Origin: an uncultured Alphaproteobacteria bacterium
GTDB lineage: Bacteria; Pseudomonadota; Alphaproteobacteria; Sphingomonadales; SMXR01
Assembly: GCA_937126915.1 (NCBI GenBank)
Contig: CAKZLM010000106.1
Coordinates: 1 to 34,102 of the forward strand
DNA length: 34,102 bases
Direction of reading: 5' to 3'
Of this stretch, positions 4,543 through 31,626 are shown piece after piece. The translations under genes were made by a program, and so were the position numbers. How positions within the stretch are numbered: the stretch's first letter is position 1; each line of letters starts with the position of its first letter. The notes under the pieces are model-generated. The model was not told the origin of the DNA. It saw nothing but the letters and a program-made list of their open reading frames with translations, and did not search any database.

Positions 4543-6924
4543 TCATCCCCCACGGCGTTTTAGGGTGATGGCGGTGTGGTGGCGCTTTGGCTTGGCTTTT
4601 CGGCCTAATTCCAATTCTTTCTCACGGCGCTTGCTTTCTGCCGAAAAGGCCTGCCCCATACCAGCATAATATTGTTTTTCCCAATTTTGACGCTCGGTTT
4701 TAGCGCCATACCAACCAGCGGCTTGGCGGCTGAAAAACGGGTTCCACATGTGTGGGCGGCCCAAGGCCACTAGATCAGCGCGGCGGGTGTGAAGAATAGT
4801 ATTCACCTGAGCGGGTTCGGTAATAGCCCCCACGGTCATGGTTGCCATTTTGGGCACATTACGAATGGCTTCTGAGAAACCAACCTGATACATACGGCCA
4901 TAAGTGGGTTTTTGATCAGGCACGGTTTGACCACTAGACACCGACACCAAATCACAGCCAGCTTCACGGAATGTCTCAGCAATGATAAAGGTTTCATCTT
5001 CCGAAATACCGCCCTCTTTCCAATCGCTGGCGGATATACGGATCGACATAGGCTTATTACTTGGCCAAACGGCGCGCATCGCCTCAAACACTTCTAACGG
5101 ATAGCGCAGGCGGTTTTCAATGCTGCCGCCATAATCATCATCACGCACATTGGTTAAGGGCGATAAGAAACTAGCCAGCAAATACCCGTGGGCGCAGTGT
5201 AATTCAATCATGTCAAATCCAGCACGATCAGCGCGCTTGGTTGCTTGCACAAAATCATCCTTGATGCGATCCATATCAGTGCGCGTCATCTCATGCGGGG
5301 TATCACTAATACCATCCATATAAGGTATCGGTGAGGCTGAGTATAACGGCCAATTAGCGCCGTCATCTTCCAAGGGATAATCCATTTTTTGCCAACCCAA
5401 TTGGGTCGACCCTTTTCGACCCGCATGACCTAATTGCAGGGCGATTTTTGAGGCACTGTTTTGATGAACAAAATTTACCAGTTTTTTAAAGCCAGCCTCA
5501 TGCTCGTCCGTCCAAAGACCGGGGCAACCAGGCGTAATGCGTGCATCTGCTGATGGGCACGTCATTTCCACATATAGTAAACCCATGCCACCACGTGCGG
5601 CACCGCCATAATGAACCAAGTGCCAATCGGTTAAATTGCCATCTTCTGTGCAGGAATATTGTGCCATCGGCGCCATTACCACGCGGTTATGCAGTTCCAT
5701 ATCGCGCAGCTTAAACTTGGTGAACATCGGCGTTGGGCGGCTGTCACGATAATCATAACCAGTGCGATCATAATAATTTTGATACCATTCCGTATCGGCC
5801 TTTTCGACAAAGCTTTCATCGCGCAGGATCAAATTGTCATAAGTCACAGATTTGGCGCGGCACATCACCACCATGGCAAATTCATAGGTATCCATATCCC
5901 ACGAGCGATCCATATGTTCGAACCACGCCAAGGAAACATCGGCATTATGCTGAACAATTTGCGCAGGGGTGCGGCGCAGTTCGTCATATTTTTCAAAGGC
6001 CGCTGTTACACCATCTTTTTCCAAATGCTCAATCACCGCATCATGCAAGCCAATGGCACAATCCATCGCTAGTTTTGAGCCAGACCCAATTGAGAAGTGC
6101 GCCGATGCCTTAGCATCACCCAGAATAACGATGTTTTTATGATACCAATTGTTACAGAAAATACGCGGGAATTGACGCCAGTGAGAGCGGTTCAATAAAA
6201 GCGGGTGACCATCCAATTCTTCGGCAAATATTTTTTCTAATTTGTCGCGGCTGTCTTCTTCGTCATCAACCTTAAAGCCATGGCCCTGCCAGCATTCATC
6301 AGACATCTCAATCACCCATGTTGAGCAATCTTGTGAATATTGATAGGTGTGGGCGCAGATCAAACCATGCTCGGTTTCCTTAAAGAAATAGGTGAAGTCT
6401 TTTAGGAAACGGGTTGATCCCATCCAAGTAAAGCGGTTGGACTTGATCTTGGTATCTGGGTCAAACTGTTCCTTATAATATTCCCGCACAGCTGAATTAA
6501 TACCATCAGCCGCCAGCACAATATCACTGTCGCCAAAGCGTGTTTCAATGGTTGCAGGGTCAATGCGCTCGCCATACACCATGGTCACACCCAGCTCTTC
6601 ACAGCGATTTTGCAAGACATTCAACAGATGAATTCGGCTGGACCCACAAAAGCCATTACCGCCACAGGTCACCGTTTTGCCCTTACGCACGATGTGGATA
6701 TCATCCCAATAAGCAAACTCATCACGGATGCGCTCGTAGCTATCGCGGTCACGAATTTCATATTCCGATAAGCTATCATCGGAAAACACCACGCCAAAGC
6801 CAAAGGTATCATCAGCGCGGTTTTGTTCATAAACCGTAATATCCCAATCAGGGCGTGCTTTTTTGGTCAGAAGGGCAAAATACAAACCACCCGGGCCACC
6901 ACCGATTACGGTAATTTTTGTCAT
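4543..6924 (-). CDS. Flavin monooxygenase fused to old-yellow-enzyme reductase (2-aminobenzoyl-CoA monooxygenase/reductase or salicylyl-CoA 5-hydroxylase type)
   Basis: 793 residues in two enzymes. Residues 1-about 390 are a class A flavin monooxygenase: GGGPGG (8-13) binds FAD, and a second FAD motif begins at GDAKAS (269-274). Residues about 398-760 are an old-yellow-enzyme FMN barrel with QLGHAGRKG and the HCAHGYLLASFLSP segment (H576, H579). This order and size match the known 2-aminobenzoyl-CoA monooxygenase/reductase of Azoarcus evansii. That enzyme hydroxylates the CoA-activated ring and then reduces it to a non-aromatic ketone using O2 and NADH. Homologues are often labelled bifunctional salicylyl-CoA 5-hydroxylase/oxidoreductase, so the substrate (amino- or hydroxybenzoyl-CoA) is not settled. 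It is last in an operon, 41 bases after a beta-oxidation gene, with GAGGAGGG before ATG. Confidence 0.88.
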   Translation of the reverse strand: MTKITVIGGGPGGLYFALLTKKARPDWDITVYEQNRADDTFGFGVVFSDDSLSEYEIRDRDSYERIRDEFAYWDDIHIVRKGKTVTCGGNGFCGSSRIHLLNVLQNRCEELGVTMVYGERIDPATIETRFGDSDIVLAADGINSAVREYYKEQFDPDTKIKSNRFTWMGSTRFLKDFTYFFKETEHGLICAHTYQYSQDCSTWVIEMSDECWQGHGFKVDDEEDSRDKLEKIFAEELDGHPLLLNRSHWRQFPRIFCNNWYHKNIVILGDAKASAHFSIGSGSKLAMDCAIGLHDAVIEHLEKDGVTAAFEKYDELRRTPAQIVQHNADVSLAWFEHMDRSWDMDTYEFAMVVMCRAKSVTYDNLILRDESFVEKADTEWYQNYYDRTGYDYRDSRPTPMFTKFKLRDMELHNRVVMAPMAQYSCTEDGNLTDWHLVHYGGAARGGMGLLYVEMTCPSADARITPGCPGLWTDEHEAGFKKLVNFVHQNSASKIALQLGHAGRKGSTQLGWQKMDYPLEDDGANWPLYSASPIPYMDGISDTPHEMTRTDMDRIKDDFVQATKRADRAGFDMIELHCAHGYLLASFLSPLTNVRDDDYGGSIENRLRYPLEVFEAMRAVWPSNKPMSIRISASDWKEGGISEDETFIIAETFREAGCDLVSVSSGQTVPDQKPTYGRMYQVGFSEAIRNVPKMATMTVGAITEPAQVNTILHTRRADLVALGRPHMWNPFFSRQAAGWYGAKTERQNWEKQYYAGMGQAFSAESKRREKELELGRKAKPKRHHTAITLKRRGG

Positions 6925-6965: not shown

Positions 6966-9065
6966 TTAACTTTGACGATCATAATCAGCAAAAGATTTAC
7001 CCTCTTTTGCCAATTGTTCAATCAAGGGCGCTGGTTTCCACCAACGATCGCCAAAACGATCTTTAAAGCCGTTGATCTTCTCAAGAACCTTATCAAGGCC
7101 CATTTGATCGGCATAATGCATCGGGCCACCACGGAACGGCGGATAGCCATAACCATTAACATAAACCACATCAATATCGCTGGCGCGAAGGGCAATGCCC
7201 TCACCCAAAATTTTGGCACCCTCATTCACCAAGGCCAGCATGCAGCGCTCAACAATTTCTTCCTCGCTAATCGGCTGGCGACTGATGTCGGCTTTGTTCG
7301 CTTCATCCATGATGATCTGTTCGGTTAACTGCGATGGTTTTGGCGTGCGACTGCCTTGGTCATAGTCATAAATACCAGCGCCCACTTTAAGACCCTTGCG
7401 GTCTTTTTCAACCAAACGATCCATCCAATCAAACGCCTTGGTTTCATAGGCATCACGCCCCATGGCCTGACGGTTCATATAACCAATATCCAACCCTGCA
7501 AGGTCAAACACGGTTAAGGGCCCCATCGCCATGCCGAAGTCATAAAGCGCTTTATCCACCTCTTCCGGCGCAGCGCCTTCGATGACACAAAGACCTGCCT
7601 CGCGACCATAATGCGACAACATACGGTTACCGATAAAGCCATAGCAAACGCCTGAAACAACACCGACCTTTTTGATCTTTTTCGCCAAATCAATAGAAGT
7701 GGCCAATACATCATCGCCAGTTTTTTCACCGCGCACAATTTCCAATAATTTCATCACATTGGCAGGGCTGAAGAAGTGTAAACCGATAACATCTTCAGGA
7801 CGTTTGGTCACATCGGCAATGTCATCAACATTTAAATATGATGTGTTAGTGGCAAGAATTGCACCGTCTTTTGCCACCTCATCCAACTGGGTGAAGACCT
7901 TTTTCTTCACCGACATTTCTTCAAACACCGCTTCGATAATCAAATCACAATCCGATAAATCAGAATAAGATTGTGTGCCTGTTAAAAGGCCCATGCAGGT
8001 TTCAACTTGCTCGTCCGTCATGCGGCCTTTTTTGGCAGTGTTTTCATAATTTCGACGAATAACGCCCAAGCCACGCTCTAAGGCTTCTTCGCTAAGTTCC
8101 AAAATGGTAACCGGAATACCCGCATTGGCAAAGTTCATGGAGATGCCACCACCCATGGTACCAGCGCCAATTACGCCAACTTTTTTAATGTCGCGACGCG
8201 GTGTTTCTTTTCCTATACCTGGCACGCGGGCAATTTGACGATGGGCAAAGAACATATGCTGCATGGCTTTTGATTGTGGGTTGGCCATACATTCAGCAAA
8301 CAATTCACGCTCTTTTTTCAGGCCCTCTTCAATCGGCATGGCAACTGCTGCTTCCACCGCCTGAATGCATTTTTCAGGGGCAAAATAGCCACGGGTTTTA
8401 CGCGCCACCGATTGGCGGAAACCATCAAAAAAGGCGCTGTCATATTTGCTTTTATCTAAATCCATTTGGCTGGTTGGGCGCGCGCCTTTGCCATCGGCCA
8501 CTAAGTGCTTGGCAAAATCAATGGCATTATCAACCAAGTCGCTTTCATAAACCGCATCAAGGGCGCCCATTTTAAGGCCCTTTTCAACCGGAACATGCTT
8601 GCCACTTACAATCATATCAAGTGATCCTTCAACCCCTGCCACGCGTGGCAAACGCTGTGTACCACCAGCGCCGGGAAGCAAACCGAGCTGCACTTCAGGC
8701 AGGCCAATTTTTGCCCCCGCCACAGCCACACGGTAATGACAACCAAGGGCAATTTCCAACCCACCGCCAAGGGCCGTACCATGAATTGCTGCCACTGTTG
8801 GTGTTTTGACGGCCTCCATTTGGTTAATCACATCAGGTAAATGTGGTGCCACAGGTGGCTTGCCAAATTCCGTAATATCAGCGCCCGCCATAAAGGTGCG
8901 TCCAGCAGCGGTTAACACAATGGCTTGTACCTCTGGGTTTTGATCAGCAGCGCTAAAGGCTTCAACCAAGCCAGCGCGCACAACTTGAGAAATAGCGTTT
9001 ACAGGTGGGTTATCAACTGTGATAACCGCGATGCCATCTTGAATATTTGTCGTTACAACAGTCAT
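6966..9065 (-). CDS. Bifunctional enoyl-CoA hydratase / 3-hydroxyacyl-CoA dehydrogenase
   Basis: 699 residues, the length of FadJ-like and peroxisomal-type multifunctional enzymes. The crotonase half (1-about 180) has AGADITEFG and the oxyanion-hole/acid pair [13 protein letters not shown] (E104) and GLPEVQLG (E124), with both hydratase glutamates present. The dehydrogenase half starts at about 295 with [12 protein letters not shown] (NAD motif G300-x-G302-x-x-G305), followed by [16 protein letters not shown], which carries the catalytic His. A second C-terminal HCDH repeat contains [14 protein letters not shown]. It hydrates enoyl-CoA and oxidises the 3-hydroxyacyl-CoA. No thiolase accompanies it. 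It lies between the acyl-CoA dehydrogenase and monooxygenase/reductase genes, so its substrate is probably the pathway intermediate rather than ordinary fatty acids. AGGGGGAAG precedes the ATG. Confidence 0.92.
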
Positions 9066-9128
9066 TATTCTTCCCCCTTTAGGATAATGTTTTTAGTCGC
9101 TTTTCTTACGATGATATTTTGAAAAGGA

Positions 9129-10331
9129 TTACATAAAGGCCTGTAACCCCGTGATGCCACGGCCCAATATAAGAGCATGCACATCATGGGTCCCTTCATA
9201 GGTATTAACGGCTTCTAAGTTCATCACATGACGAATCACATGAAACTCATCAGCGACACCATTACCACCATGCATATCACGGGCAGCGCGGGCAATATCA
9301 AGGGCCTTACCCACATTATTACGCTTAACAAGCGAGATCATTTCTGGCGCAAAATTATCTTCATCCATCAAACGACCCACACGCAACGATGATTGCAAGC
9401 CTAGGGTAATTTCGGTTAAGGCATCCGCTAATTTCTTTTGGATCAATTGGTTCGCCGCCAATGGTTTATTAAACTGTTTTCGATCCAAGGTATATTGGCG
9501 CGCTGCAGCCAAGCAAAATTCTGCTGCTCCCAAAGCACCCCATGAAATGCCATAACGGGCACGATTTAAACAACCAAACGGCCCGCCCAACCCTTGGGCA
9601 TTTGGCAATAATTGATCGTCAGACACAAACACATCATCCATCACAATTTCACCAGTGATGCTGGCGCGCAGGCTAAACTTTCCTTCAATCTTTGGTGCTG
9701 ATAAGCCTTCCATGCCTTTTTCAAGGATGAAACCACGGATTTTGTTATCATGAGCGTCAGATTTGGCCCAAACCACAAACACATCTGCAATCGGGCTGTT
9801 GGTGATCCACATTTTGTTGCCTGTGATGCGATAACCGCCATCAACCTTTTTAGCGCGGGTTTCAAGGCCACCAGCATCAGAACCATGATTTGGTTCGGTC
9901 AAACCAAAACAGCCAACCCATTCACCAGTAGCAAGTTTTGGTATATATTTCATGCGCTGCTCTTCGGAACCATAGGCATAAATAGGATGCATCACTAACG
10001 AGCTTTGCACAGAAATGGCAGAGCGATAGCCACTATCAACCCGTTCTACCTCACGAGCCACCAAGCCATAAGCCACATAACCCAAGCCCGCACAGCCATA
10101 TTTTTCAGGAATGGTCATCCCCAAAAAACCCTGCTCGCCCGCTTCTGTCATAATTTCACGATGAAACACCTCATTGCGGTTTGCATCCAACACACGCGGC
10201 ATCAATTTATCCTGGCAAAAAGCATGGGCCGCATCACGGATTATACGCTCTTCTTCGGTTAATTGACCATCCATGAAAAACGGGTCGTCCCATTTAAACT
10301 CGGTCATGCCTTTGGTGTAATTCATGCTCAT
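9129..10331 (-). CDS. gcdH: Acyl-CoA dehydrogenase, glutaryl-CoA dehydrogenase type
   Basis: 400 residues, full length for the family. [14 protein letters not shown] is the FAD/substrate segment. [15 protein letters not shown] contains R103, which I align with the arginine that holds the distal carboxylate in human glutaryl-CoA dehydrogenase (Arg94). [20 protein letters not shown] holds the catalytic base E379 in the glutaryl-CoA dehydrogenase context. The enzyme oxidises and decarboxylates glutaryl-CoA to crotonyl-CoA and passes electrons to ETF. It is the first gene of the operon, 63 bases ahead of the hydratase/dehydrogenase. Two ATGs (10331 and 10325) are possible, with AGGGA upstream. 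Lysine or tryptophan catabolism is the usual role, and the neighbours suggest aromatic acid degradation. Confidence 0.9.
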
Positions 10332-21051: not shown

Positions 21052-21621
21052 TTATTTTTGGCGAAAAAAGCGCATTAACTTGGTGCCATTCATATTTAGG
21101 GCACGAACACCCCCCTCGACATCAAAACCCAGCTTGGCCATGGCCGGAATTATCTCGTCTATACGCTGAAACCCTGACCACTGATCATGCCAAAAAAGCG
21201 GTAAGCCAGCCCCAAAAACAACAGGCTCCACACTCAACTCGATGACATCAATAAGGTTGCGCTCCAAAAACCAATCATGAACTCGAGTTCCGCCCAGCAA
21301 TGCAACGCTGGAAGCACCGACGAATTGATCCATAACTGTGTCTTGAATATTGCCATCAGGGTTAAGCCACAGGTGATTTTCAGTGCGCCACTCCGGCTTT
21401 TCAGGGAGAGTTGAGAATACAACCCGCTTTCGGTTAGGGCGAAAGGCGGCTTCGTGGGTTACGCGGCCCATCACCGACCAATCCATCTGGTCCATGCGGG
21501 TAAGGAAGTGATCCTGCTCCTCTGGACTAGCCCATGTGGCGGGGGCATGACCTGAATGTTTGGCGATATATCCATCCAAACTGGTCACAGCTAATAGGGT
21601 AATGATGGGCTTTTCGGTCAT
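21052..21621 (-). CDS. RibD C-terminal / dihydrofolate reductase-fold protein
   Basis: 189 residues. The first strand ITLLAVTSLDGYIA is the N-terminal signature of the RibD_C/DHFR-like family, and MGRVTHEAAF and SVALLGGTRVHDWFLERNLI are its NADPH-binding and helix segments. Members include riboflavin-pathway reductases and many stand-alone reductases of unknown substrate. There is no deaminase domain, so it is not full RibD. It is cytoplasmic, with no signal peptide. The gene starts 90 bases from the divergent phosphatase-like gene. Confidence 0.85.
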   Translation of the reverse strand: MTEKPIITLLAVTSLDGYIAKHSGHAPATWASPEEQDHFLTRMDQMDWSVMGRVTHEAAFRPNRKRVVFSTLPEKPEWRTENHLWLNPDGNIQDTVMDQFVGASSVALLGGTRVHDWFLERNLIDVIELSVEPVVFGAGLPLFWHDQWSGFQRIDEIIPAMAKLGFDVEGGVRALNMNGTKLMRFFRQK

Positions 21622-21711
21622 TTGTTCATCTTTGGTTCAGATTAATTTTATACAATTGCGATTATGCATTTTTCGAAATAGAAAACAGATATTTTAGATC
21701 GCTTTTTAACT

Positions 21712-22218
21712 ATGAAATTACTCAACAATCAACTGATCATTGGACATAAACCAGAACTTTCCAGCTTGATGACCATGGCCAAAGACGGCATCACTGACGT
21801 GGTAACCATTTTAATGGAAAGTGAAGGTGCCAGAAAAATTAAAACCATGGCCCAATCTCAGGGGCTTAACTGGCATTGGTTTTCCTTTAACAAAATCAAT
21901 CATCCTGATCAATTGCAAAACATTGATGAAACCTTATTTCTTCATCAGGCCCACACCCTAAAAAGTCACATCCAAAAGTCACGCTATCGCACTTATTACA
22001 TCCATGGCGACGAAGGCATTTGCCGTACGGGCATGATGGTTTATGCGGTCTATCAATTGCTAGGGCACAGCCGTGACGAGGCGCGCGCCGCCATCCTGCA
22101 CATCAGACCAAAAACCTATCAAGAAATGGGCGCACCCTGCCTTGATCGTGTTGATGAAATGCTTGCAAACTGCAGCGACAAAGTGGTTTACATGGCCAAC
22201 TTTAAAAAGGCATCATAA
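21712..22218 (+). CDS. Tyrosine/dual-specificity phosphatase-fold protein with Cys replaced by Gly
   Basis: 168 residues. The protein follows the pattern of bacterial DSP-like phosphatases: an N-terminal strand-turn region about a phosphate-binding hand (ITDVVTILMESEGARKIK), a WHWFSFNKINHP loop at the general-acid site, then the P-loop. The signature HCxxGxxRTG reads HGDEGICRTG (98-107). The essential nucleophile position is G99 while R105 is intact, and a Cys lies at 104 next to the Arg. The codon is GGC, one base from TGC. It is likely a pseudophosphatase that binds phosphorylated ligands, or else it uses Cys104 in an altered geometry. Start ATG 21712 lacks a clear ribosome site. Confidence 0.78.
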   Translation: MKLLNNQLIIGHKPELSSLMTMAKDGITDVVTILMESEGARKIKTMAQSQGLNWHWFSFNKINHPDQLQNIDETLFLHQAHTLKSHIQKSRYRTYYIHGDEGICRTGMMVYAVYQLLGHSRDEARAAILHIRPKTYQEMGAPCLDRVDEMLANCSDKVVYMANFKKAS

Positions 22219-22264: not shown

Positions 22265-22292
22265 AAACCCGATGTCGGAACATCGGGTTTAT
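22265..22292. terminator. Bidirectional hairpin terminator
   Basis: An 11-bp stem AAACCCGATGT (22265-22275) pairs with ACATCGGGTTT (22280-22290) around the tetraloop CGGA. There is an A-run on the left, and the T-run after the right arm is short. It separates the plus-strand phosphatase-like gene from the convergent M14 gene. Confidence 0.85.
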
Positions 22293-22321: not shown

Positions 22322-25162
22322 TTAGTCGATGTCATTCCAGAACATCAAAGCGTTATAGACAAAGCCATGATCATGGTGGTTTAGGTGACGGTGCATGGGG
22401 TTCCAACCATAGACAACCACGCGGCCATCACCGACTTTTTGCTTCACAATAGCTGGGGCTCCATTTAACTGGCCCTTACCGCGTAAAATTCCACCGGACA
22501 ACACCAACGGCTTGTTGGCAGGTTTAGCTTGCGCTGTGTCACCTTCCAACCATGGGCGAACGCTGGCTTCTTTGGTGCCAAATTGCGCCACCATCATTTC
22601 ACGATGATCATCCTTACCAACGCGGTAGAACGGCACATTACCGCGGAACGCATGGGTGTAACCATCATACCCATAAACAAGGGGCGATGATGGGTTGGTG
22701 ACCTTCATGGTGATCACTGACCCTGGGGTATTAACCGCAGGGCGTGACATGCCAATATCTGAGGCAATGCCGCTTTCAGCCACCAGTGATCCACCTGAAC
22801 CAAGGCCCACAAAAGTACCACCTTGTTTAATAAAGGCTTCAAGCGATGCCATACCATCAAAACCGTAACCGCCTGTGATATCAGGCGATGACACAATGCG
22901 ACCATGGCTTGGGGTTTCATCAGTGGTTTCATAGGCCAATGGCGACCATTTGCTGTCCACCCCATTGATCAAAGCGCGCAAGGAACCACGACGACCAAAG
23001 CTAGGCGCAACGATCACGTCATATTTGTCGTTTAAGTTACCCGCTTTTAATTCGTCTTTTTCAATGATGCTGAACGGCACCTTCGCCATATCAAAGCTGT
23101 AACGAACCCAACCCGGGTCTTGAGTTGAAATCCAGCTGTGCAGCAAACCAATACGCGGAACGTCCATTTCGATCATCTCACCCTTTGGCATTGACCGCAA
23201 ACCATCCACGGGCAGCAATGTACGACCGACAACCTCGTTCAAGGCAGCAAGGTCAACACTATCCCCCTCAATAAAGATAGAACCTGCAGGATAAGTTTTA
23301 CCGCCTGCTTTTACCTCACCTTTACTAGCAAACATTTTTGCTGTTGGCAGCGCAAAGCGCAGCTCGCCCAGCCCCTCTTGAGCTTTGTGAGCCACAGCAT
23401 AAACATTGGCTTTTCGTACATTGGCAGATTTAAACACGTCAGCGCCTGAAGCAATTGGGTCAACATCAAGTTCCAGAATATCTGTATCGCTTACCAATTG
23501 TGCGTCCACACCGCGTAGATAACTCATAGTCCATGCCACATCATCATAAGGCGGTACTTGCGCATCTTCAGGGAAGGATTGCTTATCAAACAAGGTTTTG
23601 GCAAAGGGACCATAAGGCTGATCCAAACGGATGATTAAGTCACCTTCTTCTACTTTCACTTCGCCAAATGTGCCATCATCATCGGCTACATGCACTTCAA
23701 TAGCTTGCTCGATAATCAGGTCAACCAATTCACGCGCCGCACCGGGATCACGTTGCTTCATCGGGATGACAACGGCATTTGCATCATCTGACTTGGTACC
23801 CGCTGCAACGGCTTCCTGACCTTTAGCATAATAATTACGCAACAGGTCAGCACCATTTTTGGCGGCATATTCAAGCGAAGCATAAACACCGCTGGACATA
23901 TAATTAAGGTTATTACGCATCGACCACAGCGTTTGTTCCGCAGGCGGGCTTGGGCGATACCACGTTTTATCAACCACCTTGTCACCAGCATAACTGCTGT
24001 CGCTTAAGTCACGCAGCATGGTTTCAGAACCACCATTTCCGAAGGTTTCATAAAAACGACCATTGGCATTACGGTTATTGGTCACCCACAGCATATAGCC
24101 TGGCCACCAACCGGTGTAAAAGCCCCATGTCCAAACACCAGGCATCCCTTTTCCGGTTAGGCGAGAGACCTCATAGTTAGCAATTGACGCCCATTCTGAA
24201 ACCGTAGTTGCACTAACACCGGGGTTATAAGGCCCAGTGCCCGTCGCCACATAAAGATAAGGCACACTTTCGTGCAAATCGAGCGACAAAATTGGCTTAT
24301 ATTTCAAGAAATGCTTCAGATAATTTTTGGTCATCGGTTGGGTTAGGCCAATACCGTCACGGTTGTTATCGTGGAAGGTATATTTCCCCCAGAACGGCGG
24401 GCCAGACGGTGGGCGATTATAATAATCTGTGCGGCCCTTATTATGCTTTAAAAACCACTCGGTTGAGCGATTGCGACCATCGACCTCAAACACAGGCGTG
24501 ATCATGGTGATAACATTTTTTCGCACATTTTGGAAAAGCTCACGCTCTTCCGCCGCCACACGGTAGGCAATTTCCATCGCCGTTTCAGGTGGACCATACT
24601 CGGTTGAGTGCAAGCCCGTTGTGATATAATAAATTGGTTTTAAGTCTTTGATGATGGCTTCAGCCTCTGCCTCGCTGGTTTTGCGCGGGTCAGACAGGGC
24701 ATCATTCATCTTGGCAAACTCATCCATTTGCGCCAATACCTCAGGATCTGCAATAGCAATGGCTATTTGCTCACGCCCCTCAGCGGTTAATCCTAAAGAC
24801 ACAACCTTGGCACGATCCGTTGCCGCAGCAATGGCGCGCATGTAAGCATGAATTTCATTCACATTGGTCATTTCACTTTCCGCCCCTGCGATATGACCTA
24901 AAAAGTCGCGCGGGCTGGGAATGGTTGGGTGGTCTGGCATCGCTGACACCCAATCATTTAAAAAGCGTGCCTCGGTGGTGGCTGCGCGAATAGCTTTGGT
25001 TGATGTGATATCAACCTTCAAACCGCCTAAGGTTTCTGGAATGGGTAGATGCGATAAATCTTCTTTTTCGTTAGCAATGGTGATGCTGCCAAGGCCTGCA
25101 CTCAAGGCCAATAAGGATAGTCCAGCACCAAAACGTGCTAAACGTTGCTGTCTTTTGAACAT
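22322..25162 (-). CDS. Secreted M14 zinc carboxypeptidase with C-terminal GATase1-like domain
   Basis: 946 residues. Residues 1-30 form a signal peptide ending TIA-NEK. The zinc site is GLHSTEYG (H185, E188) plus LDLHES (H297), and NNRDG before it is the usual substrate-pocket motif of this family. ETFGNGGSET probably holds the catalytic Glu. After residue about 480 come a beta-rich region and a C-terminal domain of the glutamine-amidotransferase-like fold (DVIVAPSFGRRGSL and FVGLGSGGSLVAES, without a clear Cys nucleophile). The protein should be a periplasmic or secreted peptidase acting on peptide C-termini. The long two-domain architecture is shared by many uncharacterised homologues in marine bacteria. 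GGGGGGAA precedes the ATG. Confidence 0.9.
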   Translation of the reverse strand: MFKRQQRLARFGAGLSLLALSAGLGSITIANEKEDLSHLPIPETLGGLKVDITSTKAIRAATTEARFLNDWVSAMPDHPTIPSPRDFLGHIAGAESEMTNVNEIHAYMRAIAAATDRAKVVSLGLTAEGREQIAIAIADPEVLAQMDEFAKMNDALSDPRKTSEAEAEAIIKDLKPIYYITTGLHSTEYGPPETAMEIAYRVAAEERELFQNVRKNVITMITPVFEVDGRNRSTEWFLKHNKGRTDYYNRPPSGPPFWGKYTFHDNNRDGIGLTQPMTKNYLKHFLKYKPILSLDLHESVPYLYVATGTGPYNPGVSATTVSEWASIANYEVSRLTGKGMPGVWTWGFYTGWWPGYMLWVTNNRNANGRFYETFGNGGSETMLRDLSDSSYAGDKVVDKTWYRPSPPAEQTLWSMRNNLNYMSSGVYASLEYAAKNGADLLRNYYAKGQEAVAAGTKSDDANAVVIPMKQRDPGAARELVDLIIEQAIEVHVADDDGTFGEVKVEEGDLIIRLDQPYGPFAKTLFDKQSFPEDAQVPPYDDVAWTMSYLRGVDAQLVSDTDILELDVDPIASGADVFKSANVRKANVYAVAHKAQEGLGELRFALPTAKMFASKGEVKAGGKTYPAGSIFIEGDSVDLAALNEVVGRTLLPVDGLRSMPKGEMIEMDVPRIGLLHSWISTQDPGWVRYSFDMAKVPFSIIEKDELKAGNLNDKYDVIVAPSFGRRGSLRALINGVDSKWSPLAYETTDETPSHGRIVSSPDITGGYGFDGMASLEAFIKQGGTFVGLGSGGSLVAESGIASDIGMSRPAVNTPGSVITMKVTNPSSPLVYGYDGYTHAFRGNVPFYRVGKDDHREMMVAQFGTKEASVRPWLEGDTAQAKPANKPLVLSGGILRGKGQLNGAPAIVKQKVGDGRVVVYGWNPMHRHLNHHDHGFVYNALMFWNDID

Positions 25163-29505: not shown

Positions 29506-31626
29506 TTAGGGAGAGGCAAGCCTCTCCCTTTTTTTCAATTTCTTGCTGTTTAACACAATATCCAAAACCCCACGAATATCATCAATATCATAAGGCTTAG
29601 TGATCACACCATTTAGACCAGCTTGCTCGCATAGGTCTTTAACCTCCGTTAAGGCATCAGCGGTCAGGGCAAAAATGGTGGTACGCTGATTAATACCTAA
29701 TTCCATCATTTTATGCCCAGCTTCAATACCATTCATCACCGGCATATGTATATCAAGGAAGATCAGATCAAATTGCTGATCTGACGCCGCCTCTACAGCT
29801 TTTTTACCATTATCGACCATAGTGGGAACAATGTGAAACATGTCCAAGATACTGGTCACGATAGCTTGATTAATGGCATTATCTTCTGCCACCAACACTT
29901 TTAACCCTGAATAATCCTGATCAACAGAACGGTCCAATTCTTTCTTGGTTGGTTGCCCCTCAGACATTGGCAACAACAACCTAAACTGACTGCCAACACC
30001 AACATCACTTTTGACCGATACATCACCATCCAGCAGCTTAACCAGTGACTTAACGATCGCCAAACCAAGTCCTGTACCACCATACTCCGACGAGATCATT
30101 TTATTATCCTGCTCGAAGCGGCCCCAAATTTTATCAATGTTTTTAATGCCAATACCCGTATCTTGAATGTCAATTTGCATGCCAGTCACAACGTCATCTT
30201 TCATGACCGCTTTGAAAGACAGTGTCACACTTCCCTTTGATGTAAATTTAAAAGCATTTGATAAAAGATTATTCAGAATTTGCCGCAAGCGCATTTTATC
30301 ATAAACCACATAATCTGGCAGAGCTGCATCTCTTTCAACGGCAAATGACAAGCCCTTTTTATTCGCTTGTCCTTTATAAACCTTAGTAAGAGACTCAATC
30401 ATATCTTCAAGGCTAAAACTCTCTTTTTGAACACTCAGCTTACTGCGTTCAATTTTCGAGAAGTCCAATATATCATTCAATGAATGCATTAAGCTTTCAG
30501 CACACTCTTTGATGGTTGTAATATGCTGGGCGCGATCTTCTGGGCGATGCGCCTTTGACAACAAATCGGCCATACCCATAATGCCCGTTAAAGGGGTTCT
30601 AATTTCATGGCTCATATTCGCCAAAAAGTGGCTTTTGGCACTATTGGCCGCCTCGGCATTTTCCTTGGCCTTTTTCAAACTACCCTGCATTGCCTTTTGG
30701 TTAGTAATATCTTGAATGATAGACCACACCACAGGGATACCGCCCTCATCCTCAACCGCAACACCATGCATCATGACATCAAAAAAGGCTCCTGACTTAT
30801 GCTTTAACACATGCTCTGCGGGCTCATAACGCCCTGATTGCTGAACCATTTGCAATAAATCACTGCTTTCATCAGCCTTTAAATCCACCAATGACTTTTC
30901 TAGGAGTTCCGCCTCTTGATAGCCTGAGTAAAGCTCAAACTCTTTATTCGCAGAAATAAATTTACCATCTGAAGCGCGGTTTTTCACAATGCCAACCGGG
31001 GCAATTTCTACAAACTCGTTGAGAGACCTCGTAAGAAGCTCATTGTCTTTTTGAACCTTGGCGTTCAGCTTTTTAATCTCGATGGTAGCCGCGCCCATTT
31101 CCGCAACCATTTGCGCCAAGCCAACCAAGAAATCAAAATGCCTTTTAATTTCATCTTCAGAATAAACGGGCACCCGCTTAATGGCATCTAGGTAATCTTC
31201 TTCAGGAAAGCCAATACGTTTTGCCCGCTCTCTAAACTCGTCCAAATTGGGCGGTGATAAGAAAAACTGACCAGTAAATAAATTGGCCACATGGACGCCA
31301 TCAATTTTAATCGGCGTTGCCACATCAACCAAACCGTTTTTACAGCGATATAAATTATAGCTATTGCCCTGCTCAATAGAACTTGCGATGGCGGTATCGC
31401 TTTCTAAGCAATTGGCACAAGTGGTAGCGTTTTGACGATGAAATTTGGTGCAGCTATCTTGCCAATTTGTAGCGATCAAAACCGTCCCTTCCAAATCAAG
31501 AAGAGCCGTCACCATCCCAGTGGCGTCAGAATATTTCTCAAGCAACCCATTAAGCTTTTGAACATCAATAAGCTCAGTAATATGGGGTGTGGGGTTTTCT
31601 ATATGCAACACGTTTTGAACATTCAT
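29506..31626 (-). CDS. Hybrid sensor histidine kinase with PocR and PAS sensors
   Basis: 706 residues and no membrane helix, so cytoplasmic. In order: a PocR sensory domain (about 20-180) with cysteines C59, C70, C73 and C95; a short coiled linker; a PAS domain (about 200-310); HisKA with phospho-acceptor H340 in ANMSHEIRTPLTG; HATPase_c (N-box near LNNLLSNAFKF, G-box DTGIGI and GGTGLGLAIV); and a receiver with D625 in LIFLDIHMPVMNG. A phosphorelay output is expected but no partner HPt or regulator lies nearby. PocR domains sense small organic ligands in regulators such as PocR (propanediol). The last seven residues RERLASP are encoded inside the terminator of the convergent porin. Confidence 0.93.
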   Translation of the reverse strand: MNVQNVLHIENPTPHITELIDVQKLNGLLEKYSDATGMVTALLDLEGTVLIATNWQDSCTKFHRQNATTCANCLESDTAIASSIEQGNSYNLYRCKNGLVDVATPIKIDGVHVANLFTGQFFLSPPNLDEFRERAKRIGFPEEDYLDAIKRVPVYSEDEIKRHFDFLVGLAQMVAEMGAATIEIKKLNAKVQKDNELLTRSLNEFVEIAPVGIVKNRASDGKFISANKEFELYSGYQEAELLEKSLVDLKADESSDLLQMVQQSGRYEPAEHVLKHKSGAFFDVMMHGVAVEDEGGIPVVWSIIQDITNQKAMQGSLKKAKENAEAANSAKSHFLANMSHEIRTPLTGIMGMADLLSKAHRPEDRAQHITTIKECAESLMHSLNDILDFSKIERSKLSVQKESFSLEDMIESLTKVYKGQANKKGLSFAVERDAALPDYVVYDKMRLRQILNNLLSNAFKFTSKGSVTLSFKAVMKDDVVTGMQIDIQDTGIGIKNIDKIWGRFEQDNKMISSEYGGTGLGLAIVKSLVKLLDGDVSVKSDVGVGSQFRLLLPMSEGQPTKKELDRSVDQDYSGLKVLVAEDNAINQAIVTSILDMFHIVPTMVDNGKKAVEAASDQQFDLIFLDIHMPVMNGIEAGHKMMELGINQRTTIFALTADALTEVKDLCEQAGLNGVITKPYDIDDIRGVLDIVLNSKKLKKRERLASP
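29508..29535 (+). terminator. Hairpin terminator of the porin, inside the kinase coding end
   Basis: AGGGAGAGGC (29508-29517) and GCCTCTCCCT (29520-29529) pair, with the loop formed by the CAAG at the tip, and are followed by a T-run to 29535. The kinase's stop codon (29506-29508) abuts the left arm, so this terminator doubles as coding sequence. Confidence 0.85.

Follow-up and report, generated by a model that had tools for sequence, protein, structure and literature searches.

The question raised by this locus is what becomes of a protein with the fold of a dual-specificity phosphatase (DSP) when a glycine stands in the place of the catalytic cysteine. The locus lies in the window, the 34,102-nucleotide stretch of DNA from an uncultured alphaproteobacterium that was analyzed here as a whole, and consists of an open reading frame (21712–22218, forward strand; ATG start, TAA stop) for a stand-alone DSP/PTP-fold protein of 168 residues, a putative STYX-like dead phosphatase judged by the reading of the ORF, its relatives, a structural model and fold matches. 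Residues 95–108 read YYIHGDEGICRTGM; within them, the P-loop region HGDEGICRTGM (residues 98–108; 22003–22035, forward strand) was delimited by translation and column comparison. His98 is encoded by cat (22003–22005), Gly99 by ggc (22006–22008) and Arg105 by the codon at 22024–22026, and codon 99 specifies glycine at the nucleophile place of the Cys-X5-R motif. An earlier reading of the letters (the original prediction) had proposed a loop HGDEGICRTG with cysteine changed to glycine at 99 (codon GGC), Arg105, Thr106 and Gly107 retained and Cys104 adjoining the arginine, and the translation agrees with it in each detail. Not noted there were the residues at 100, 101 and 104, which are also unlike those of the nearest relatives, and Lys61, which occupies the general-acid column.

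Homologues of the protein are few and distant. A whole-genome search located a single copy in the 176-contig draft to which the window belongs, and matches were confined to that genome in the family search (1 of 8 genomes; none in the other seven) and in an order search that used the protein alone as query (1 of 396). At E ≤ 0.05, 10 of 385 genomes of the class were matched, its own included and mostly weakly; the phylum search with a two-row alignment (A1) matched 13 of 398 genomes and a further order search 14 of 292, and the two orders to which its nearest relatives belong (5 and 48 genomes) yielded one match each, in the genome already known. The best relative in the class (L002/L032; genome G686; E 1.2e-14, 31% identity) lies on contig JANQLI010000197.1 of the metagenome-assembled genome Alphaproteobacteria bacterium PL25a_bin.55, and the best match in the phylum after the window's own genome is L034, in genome G784. 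Direct BLASTP comparison aligned the window protein with L002 and L034 across 148 and 138 columns, each time at 30% identity (E 3e-21 and 6e-16, as single comparisons). A collection of genome contigs gave no match with the window protein and only the L002 contig with A1, and relatives closer than about 30% identity were absent from the family, order, class, phylum and contig searches alike.

Both nearest relatives read HCSAGIHRTGM. For the wider set, every ORF of 66 loci was scanned with a hidden Markov model built from the window protein, L002 and L034 (A3), and 49 of the loci matched at E ≤ 1e-3; the 17 that did not, mainly PF22741 matches and weak class-search matches, stand outside the count of the nucleophile column, which held Cys in 41 of 42 distinct segments. 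When the run was repeated on 92 loci, 59 distinct alignable segments were obtained, with Cys in that column in 58 and Gly only in the window protein; because A3 includes the loop, with the window protein as one of its three rows, its matches lean toward similar loops. Several of the 59 have a loop of CX4R length (one gap), among them L012, a paralogue from the window's own genome. The original prediction had raised the question whether relatives share the glycine: those aligned do not, none of them being closer than about 30% identity, and the Gly-for-Cys form is known from one sequence in one draft genome. Given the homology over most of its length to HCSAGIHRTGM proteins and the near-universal Cys in the aligned segments, the Gly-for-Cys loop is more than a chance resemblance to a phosphatase motif.

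All 11 positions of the P-loop (98–108) are identical in L002 and L034, and the window protein keeps seven of them. The changes are C99G, S100D, A101E and H104C; Gly102, Arg105, Thr106, Gly107 and Met108 are exactly as in the two relatives. The glycine could in principle be an artifact of sequencing or assembly, to which the draft state of the genome gives some room, but with residues 100, 101 and 104 differing as well this is hardly credible; in particular, a single miscalled base was rejected, since it would leave the three further loop differences unexplained. Outside the loop, 23 of the 51 positions common to L002 and L034 are kept. The presumed general-acid column, where 31 of the 59 aligned segments have Asp, holds Lys61 (21892–21894, forward strand), in a loop whose alignment is less certain than that of the P-loop; the five other members of the small clade described below have Asn, Thr, Asn, Ser and His there. 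With all six members non-Asp, the clade as a whole seems to lack the standard general acid, although this loop is gapped in the alignment and those members that keep the Cys could rely on a different acid; we treat the missing Asp as a lead, not as proof.

Because the nucleophile Cys is Gly and the usual general-acid column has no Asp, the phospho-cysteine mechanism would be unavailable, and the product is, as judged from these residues, almost certainly dead as a Cys phosphatase. Catalysis by other chemistry, through Cys104 or through a metal held at His98, Asp100 or Glu101, would draw on residues that do lie in or beside the loop; Cys104, however, precedes the arginine, a position held by His in both nearest relatives, and we consider such an enzyme very improbable. 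We know of no PTP-fold member with its nucleophile at the residue before the Arg, and Cys104 as a stand-in nucleophile was rejected for its wrong place in the loop.

The fold itself is predicted to be complete. An AlphaFold model of the window protein, built from a two-row alignment (pLDDT 83.5, pTM 0.81), has the full order of elements of the PTP fold, with a strand at 94–98, the loop and a helix at 104–116; the tail (156–168) is unsure. In a VIA-align comparison, in which rows differing by less than 1 Z count as tied, the model matched Tk-PTP (Z 15.2), KAP (15.1), ShufPTP (15.1), STYX (PDB 2r0b; 14.8) and many DUSPs, and KAP was ranked first by Foldseek (E 6.6e-6). The best fold matches, KAP/CDKN3 and the small archaeal PTPs Tk-PTP and SsoPTP (Z 14–15), differ from the window protein in being Cys enzymes, at 11–16% identity to it. 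A Cys-bearing relative (model pLDDT 80.4) gave much the same list. Sequence profiles were less decisive: PTP-NADK (PF22741, 18.5 bits) and Tc-R-P (PF22785, 15.1 bits) match weakly, both under cut-offs of 27, so that at 18.5 bits against its curated cut-off the protein falls below membership of PF22741, and L002 is matched by PF22785 and by PF22784 (PTP-SAK). Unlike the Pfam comparison set of PTP-NADK, Tc-R-P and PTP-SAK proteins, the window protein has no fused domain. No match to it was found in NCBIfam, PHROGs or PADLOC, or by a PDB sequence search with the single protein (P0001). The model thus places it in the Cys-based class I PTP/DSP fold, and its designation as a probable pseudophosphatase, proposed in the original prediction, is well supported by the Cys-to-Gly change, the absence of a general-acid Asp and the predicted intact fold.

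Nearly all pseudophosphatases described so far are eukaryotic. The open-access literature searched yielded no bacterial example with Gly for Cys, which is weak evidence of absence, subscription papers being outside its scope. The closest parallel is STYX, the human and mouse serine/threonine/tyrosine-interacting protein, which like the window protein combines a DSP fold with Gly for Cys and a retained loop Arg, and which superposes on the model with Z 14.8 (rmsd 2.8, 138 aligned, 19% identity). Two reports describe how a single Gly-to-Cys change restores activity to STYX, which carries Gly for Cys, and how STYX competes with DUSP4 for ERK (PMC8269279, PMC10211241); pseudophosphatases are spoken of in another as phosphate traps (PMC5106787). 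There are also STYX-type proteins in kinetoplastids and a Gly-for-Cys group of ArsC proteins, which show that this Cys has been lost elsewhere and that Gly has taken its place in another Cys-X5-R family as well (PMC2175518). STYX is nevertheless an animal protein; Asp100 and Glu101 are a feature of the bacterial loop, and a MAP kinase target is not to be expected in a bacterium. Since the Cys-bearing relative gives the same STYX Z of 14.8, the likeness would be one of fold, not of special kinship, and STYX was absent both from the PDB sequence matches of the single protein, of which there were none, and from 20 PDB matches of the A3 profile. As a pseudophosphatase the window protein is ordinary, and as a bacterial Gly-for-Cys case it is unusual.

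In a maximum-likelihood tree of 38 of the 42 segments (four under 105 residues were dropped), the window protein groups with L034, L002 and a trio, L035–L037 (97/88), its row joining the trio, which is itself long-branched; its end branch (3.18 vs. a median of 0.63) is the longest in the tree. Without the trio it still groups with L034 and L002, with weaker support (92/85) and a branch of 4.07 vs. a median of 0.56. L002 and L034 are thus in its clade in both trees and resemble it in length and in about 30% identity over 138–148 columns, but they keep the catalytic Cys and a C-S-A-G-I-H-R loop, and their neighborhoods differ. Placement on so long a branch is unsure, though pairwise BLAST scores agree with it. 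The trio comes from three genomes of one genus, g407 (G1099, G1019 and G788; L035 1441–1965, reverse strand, HCDGTGHRCS; L036 1432–1941, forward; L037 1468–1980, reverse). It keeps Cys and Arg in changed loops (HCDGTGHRCS, HCDGSQHRCS and HCAPGKERCR) that lack the TG after the Arg and in some cases the usual Gly, it has no Asp at the general-acid column, and it may represent another lineage of the clade that has partly degenerated.

Whether the gene is live bears on the alternative that it was recently inactivated, serves no purpose today and has begun to decay. The codon adaptation index (0.709) falls inside the range of 20 other tabled genes (0.650–0.774) and above that of this protein encoded with composition-only codons (0.536 ± 0.026), GC3 is 0.50, and a terminator-like hairpin (22265–22290; a pattern match only, two being found vs. 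0.8 expected by shuffles) lies between the ORF and a convergent M14 peptidase gene (22322–25162, reverse strand). With codon usage like that of its neighbors and this hairpin after the stop, the gene has no outward sign of decay; codon usage, open frame and hairpin cannot, however, show selection. Upstream, a gap of 90 bases (21622–21711), with no Shine–Dalgarno or promoter-like match on the forward strand, separates the ORF from a divergent RibD_C-type reductase gene (21052–21621, reverse strand); no Shine–Dalgarno match was found within 20 bases before the ATG, as was the case for 9 of the 20 other tabled genes. Early decay would fit the loss of the Cys, the fast evolution of the protein in both trees, the missing Shine–Dalgarno match and the absence of the gene from the other seven family genomes, which makes it apparently dispensable, but it must also accommodate 168 codons still open, codon adaptation like that of the neighbors, a confident predicted fold and an untouched R-T-G-M in the loop; we judge it improbable, and the product is probably a functional protein.

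The surroundings suggest no partner. The left side also encodes a protein with a sub-threshold match to DUF2786, and the neighborhoods of L002, L034 and L035, compared by eye, share nothing evident with that of the window, so that the three relatives have no common neighborhood from which a partner could be proposed. The M14 neighbor has a homologue in family genome G003 (60% identical), but the contig stops 218 bases beyond it, on the flank where the ORF would be expected and too soon to show it. The RibD_C neighbor was found in only one of the eight family genomes, its own, and so the divergent pair that it forms with the ORF may have arrived together. A defense or phage origin of the window protein was rejected with the lack of any PADLOC or PHROG match; it had no match in plasmid and phage collections, nor did a relative (P0002) among plasmids or A3 in a collection of viral contigs. 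An Rfam scan of the window returned tRNA only.

What, then, might a folded but inactive protein do? With the gene live and its product folded, a pocket formed by Arg105, Thr106 and the loop glycines could bind but not hydrolyze a phosphorylated ligand or protein partner and, in the manner of STYX, might shield what it holds or compete with an active phosphatase. Specific phosphate binding on its own we put at or a little below an even chance. Two newly acquired acids in the loop, Asp100 and Glu101, could weaken anion binding, and a repurposed interaction domain that has given up phosphate, using only the fold and presenting a D100/E101/C104 loop to another ligand or protein surface, would account for the four changed loop residues (two of them to acids), the non-Asp general-acid column and the very long branch. 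That alternative is unlikely, since a pocket not meant for anions would not obviously need Arg105, Thr106, Gly102, Gly107 and Met108, all of which are kept, and an Asp directly after the Cys is also found in Cys-keeping relatives (HCDGTGHR in L035, HCDGSQHR in L037). VHR and CDC25, too, have an acid at comparable loop positions and yet are active. The argument of the original prediction, in which an otherwise intact domain spoke for binding over decay, holds only in part: the predicted fold, Arg105 and the codon usage stand behind it, but "intact" is too strong for a protein in which four of the 11 loop residues are changed, 23 of 51 shared positions are kept and the branch is the longest in the tree, all of which indicate visibly altered constraint. 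The reading taken as a whole, that of an inactive DSP-fold protein holding a phospho-ligand or partner as STYX does, we regard as evenly poised.

A likely path is that an ancestor in the clade first left the standard Asp loop and that the window lineage then lost the Cys. That the outcome was an independently arisen bacterial counterpart of STYX, its loop remodeled to G-D-E-G-I-C-R as a dedicated trap for a phospho-ligand, is a more doubtful extension. Should the protein prove to be maintained by selection, it would offer a simple bacterial test of whether a phosphatase becomes a phospho-binding protein on losing its nucleophile, for which the Cys-bearing relatives supply the before state; overall, the case is a modest, testable curiosity.

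Among the loci searched, five (L023, L024, L083, L086 and L088) have adjoining ORFs with several DSP-like segments and loops of CX4R length (HCSHGQRAG, HCGSGDRAS), which are presumably of the DUF442-like kind. Elsewhere in the window, a 793-residue ORF (4543–6924, reverse strand) appears by eye to encode an FAD monooxygenase fused to an oxidoreductase of the Old-Yellow-Enzyme type, and it adjoins acyl-CoA genes (6966–10331) in what resembles, again by eye, a cluster for aromatic acyl-CoA degradation. A further ORF (29506–31626, reverse strand) encodes a hybrid sensor kinase with, on inspection by eye, an apparent cysteine-containing N-terminal sensory domain followed by PAS, kinase and receiver domains.
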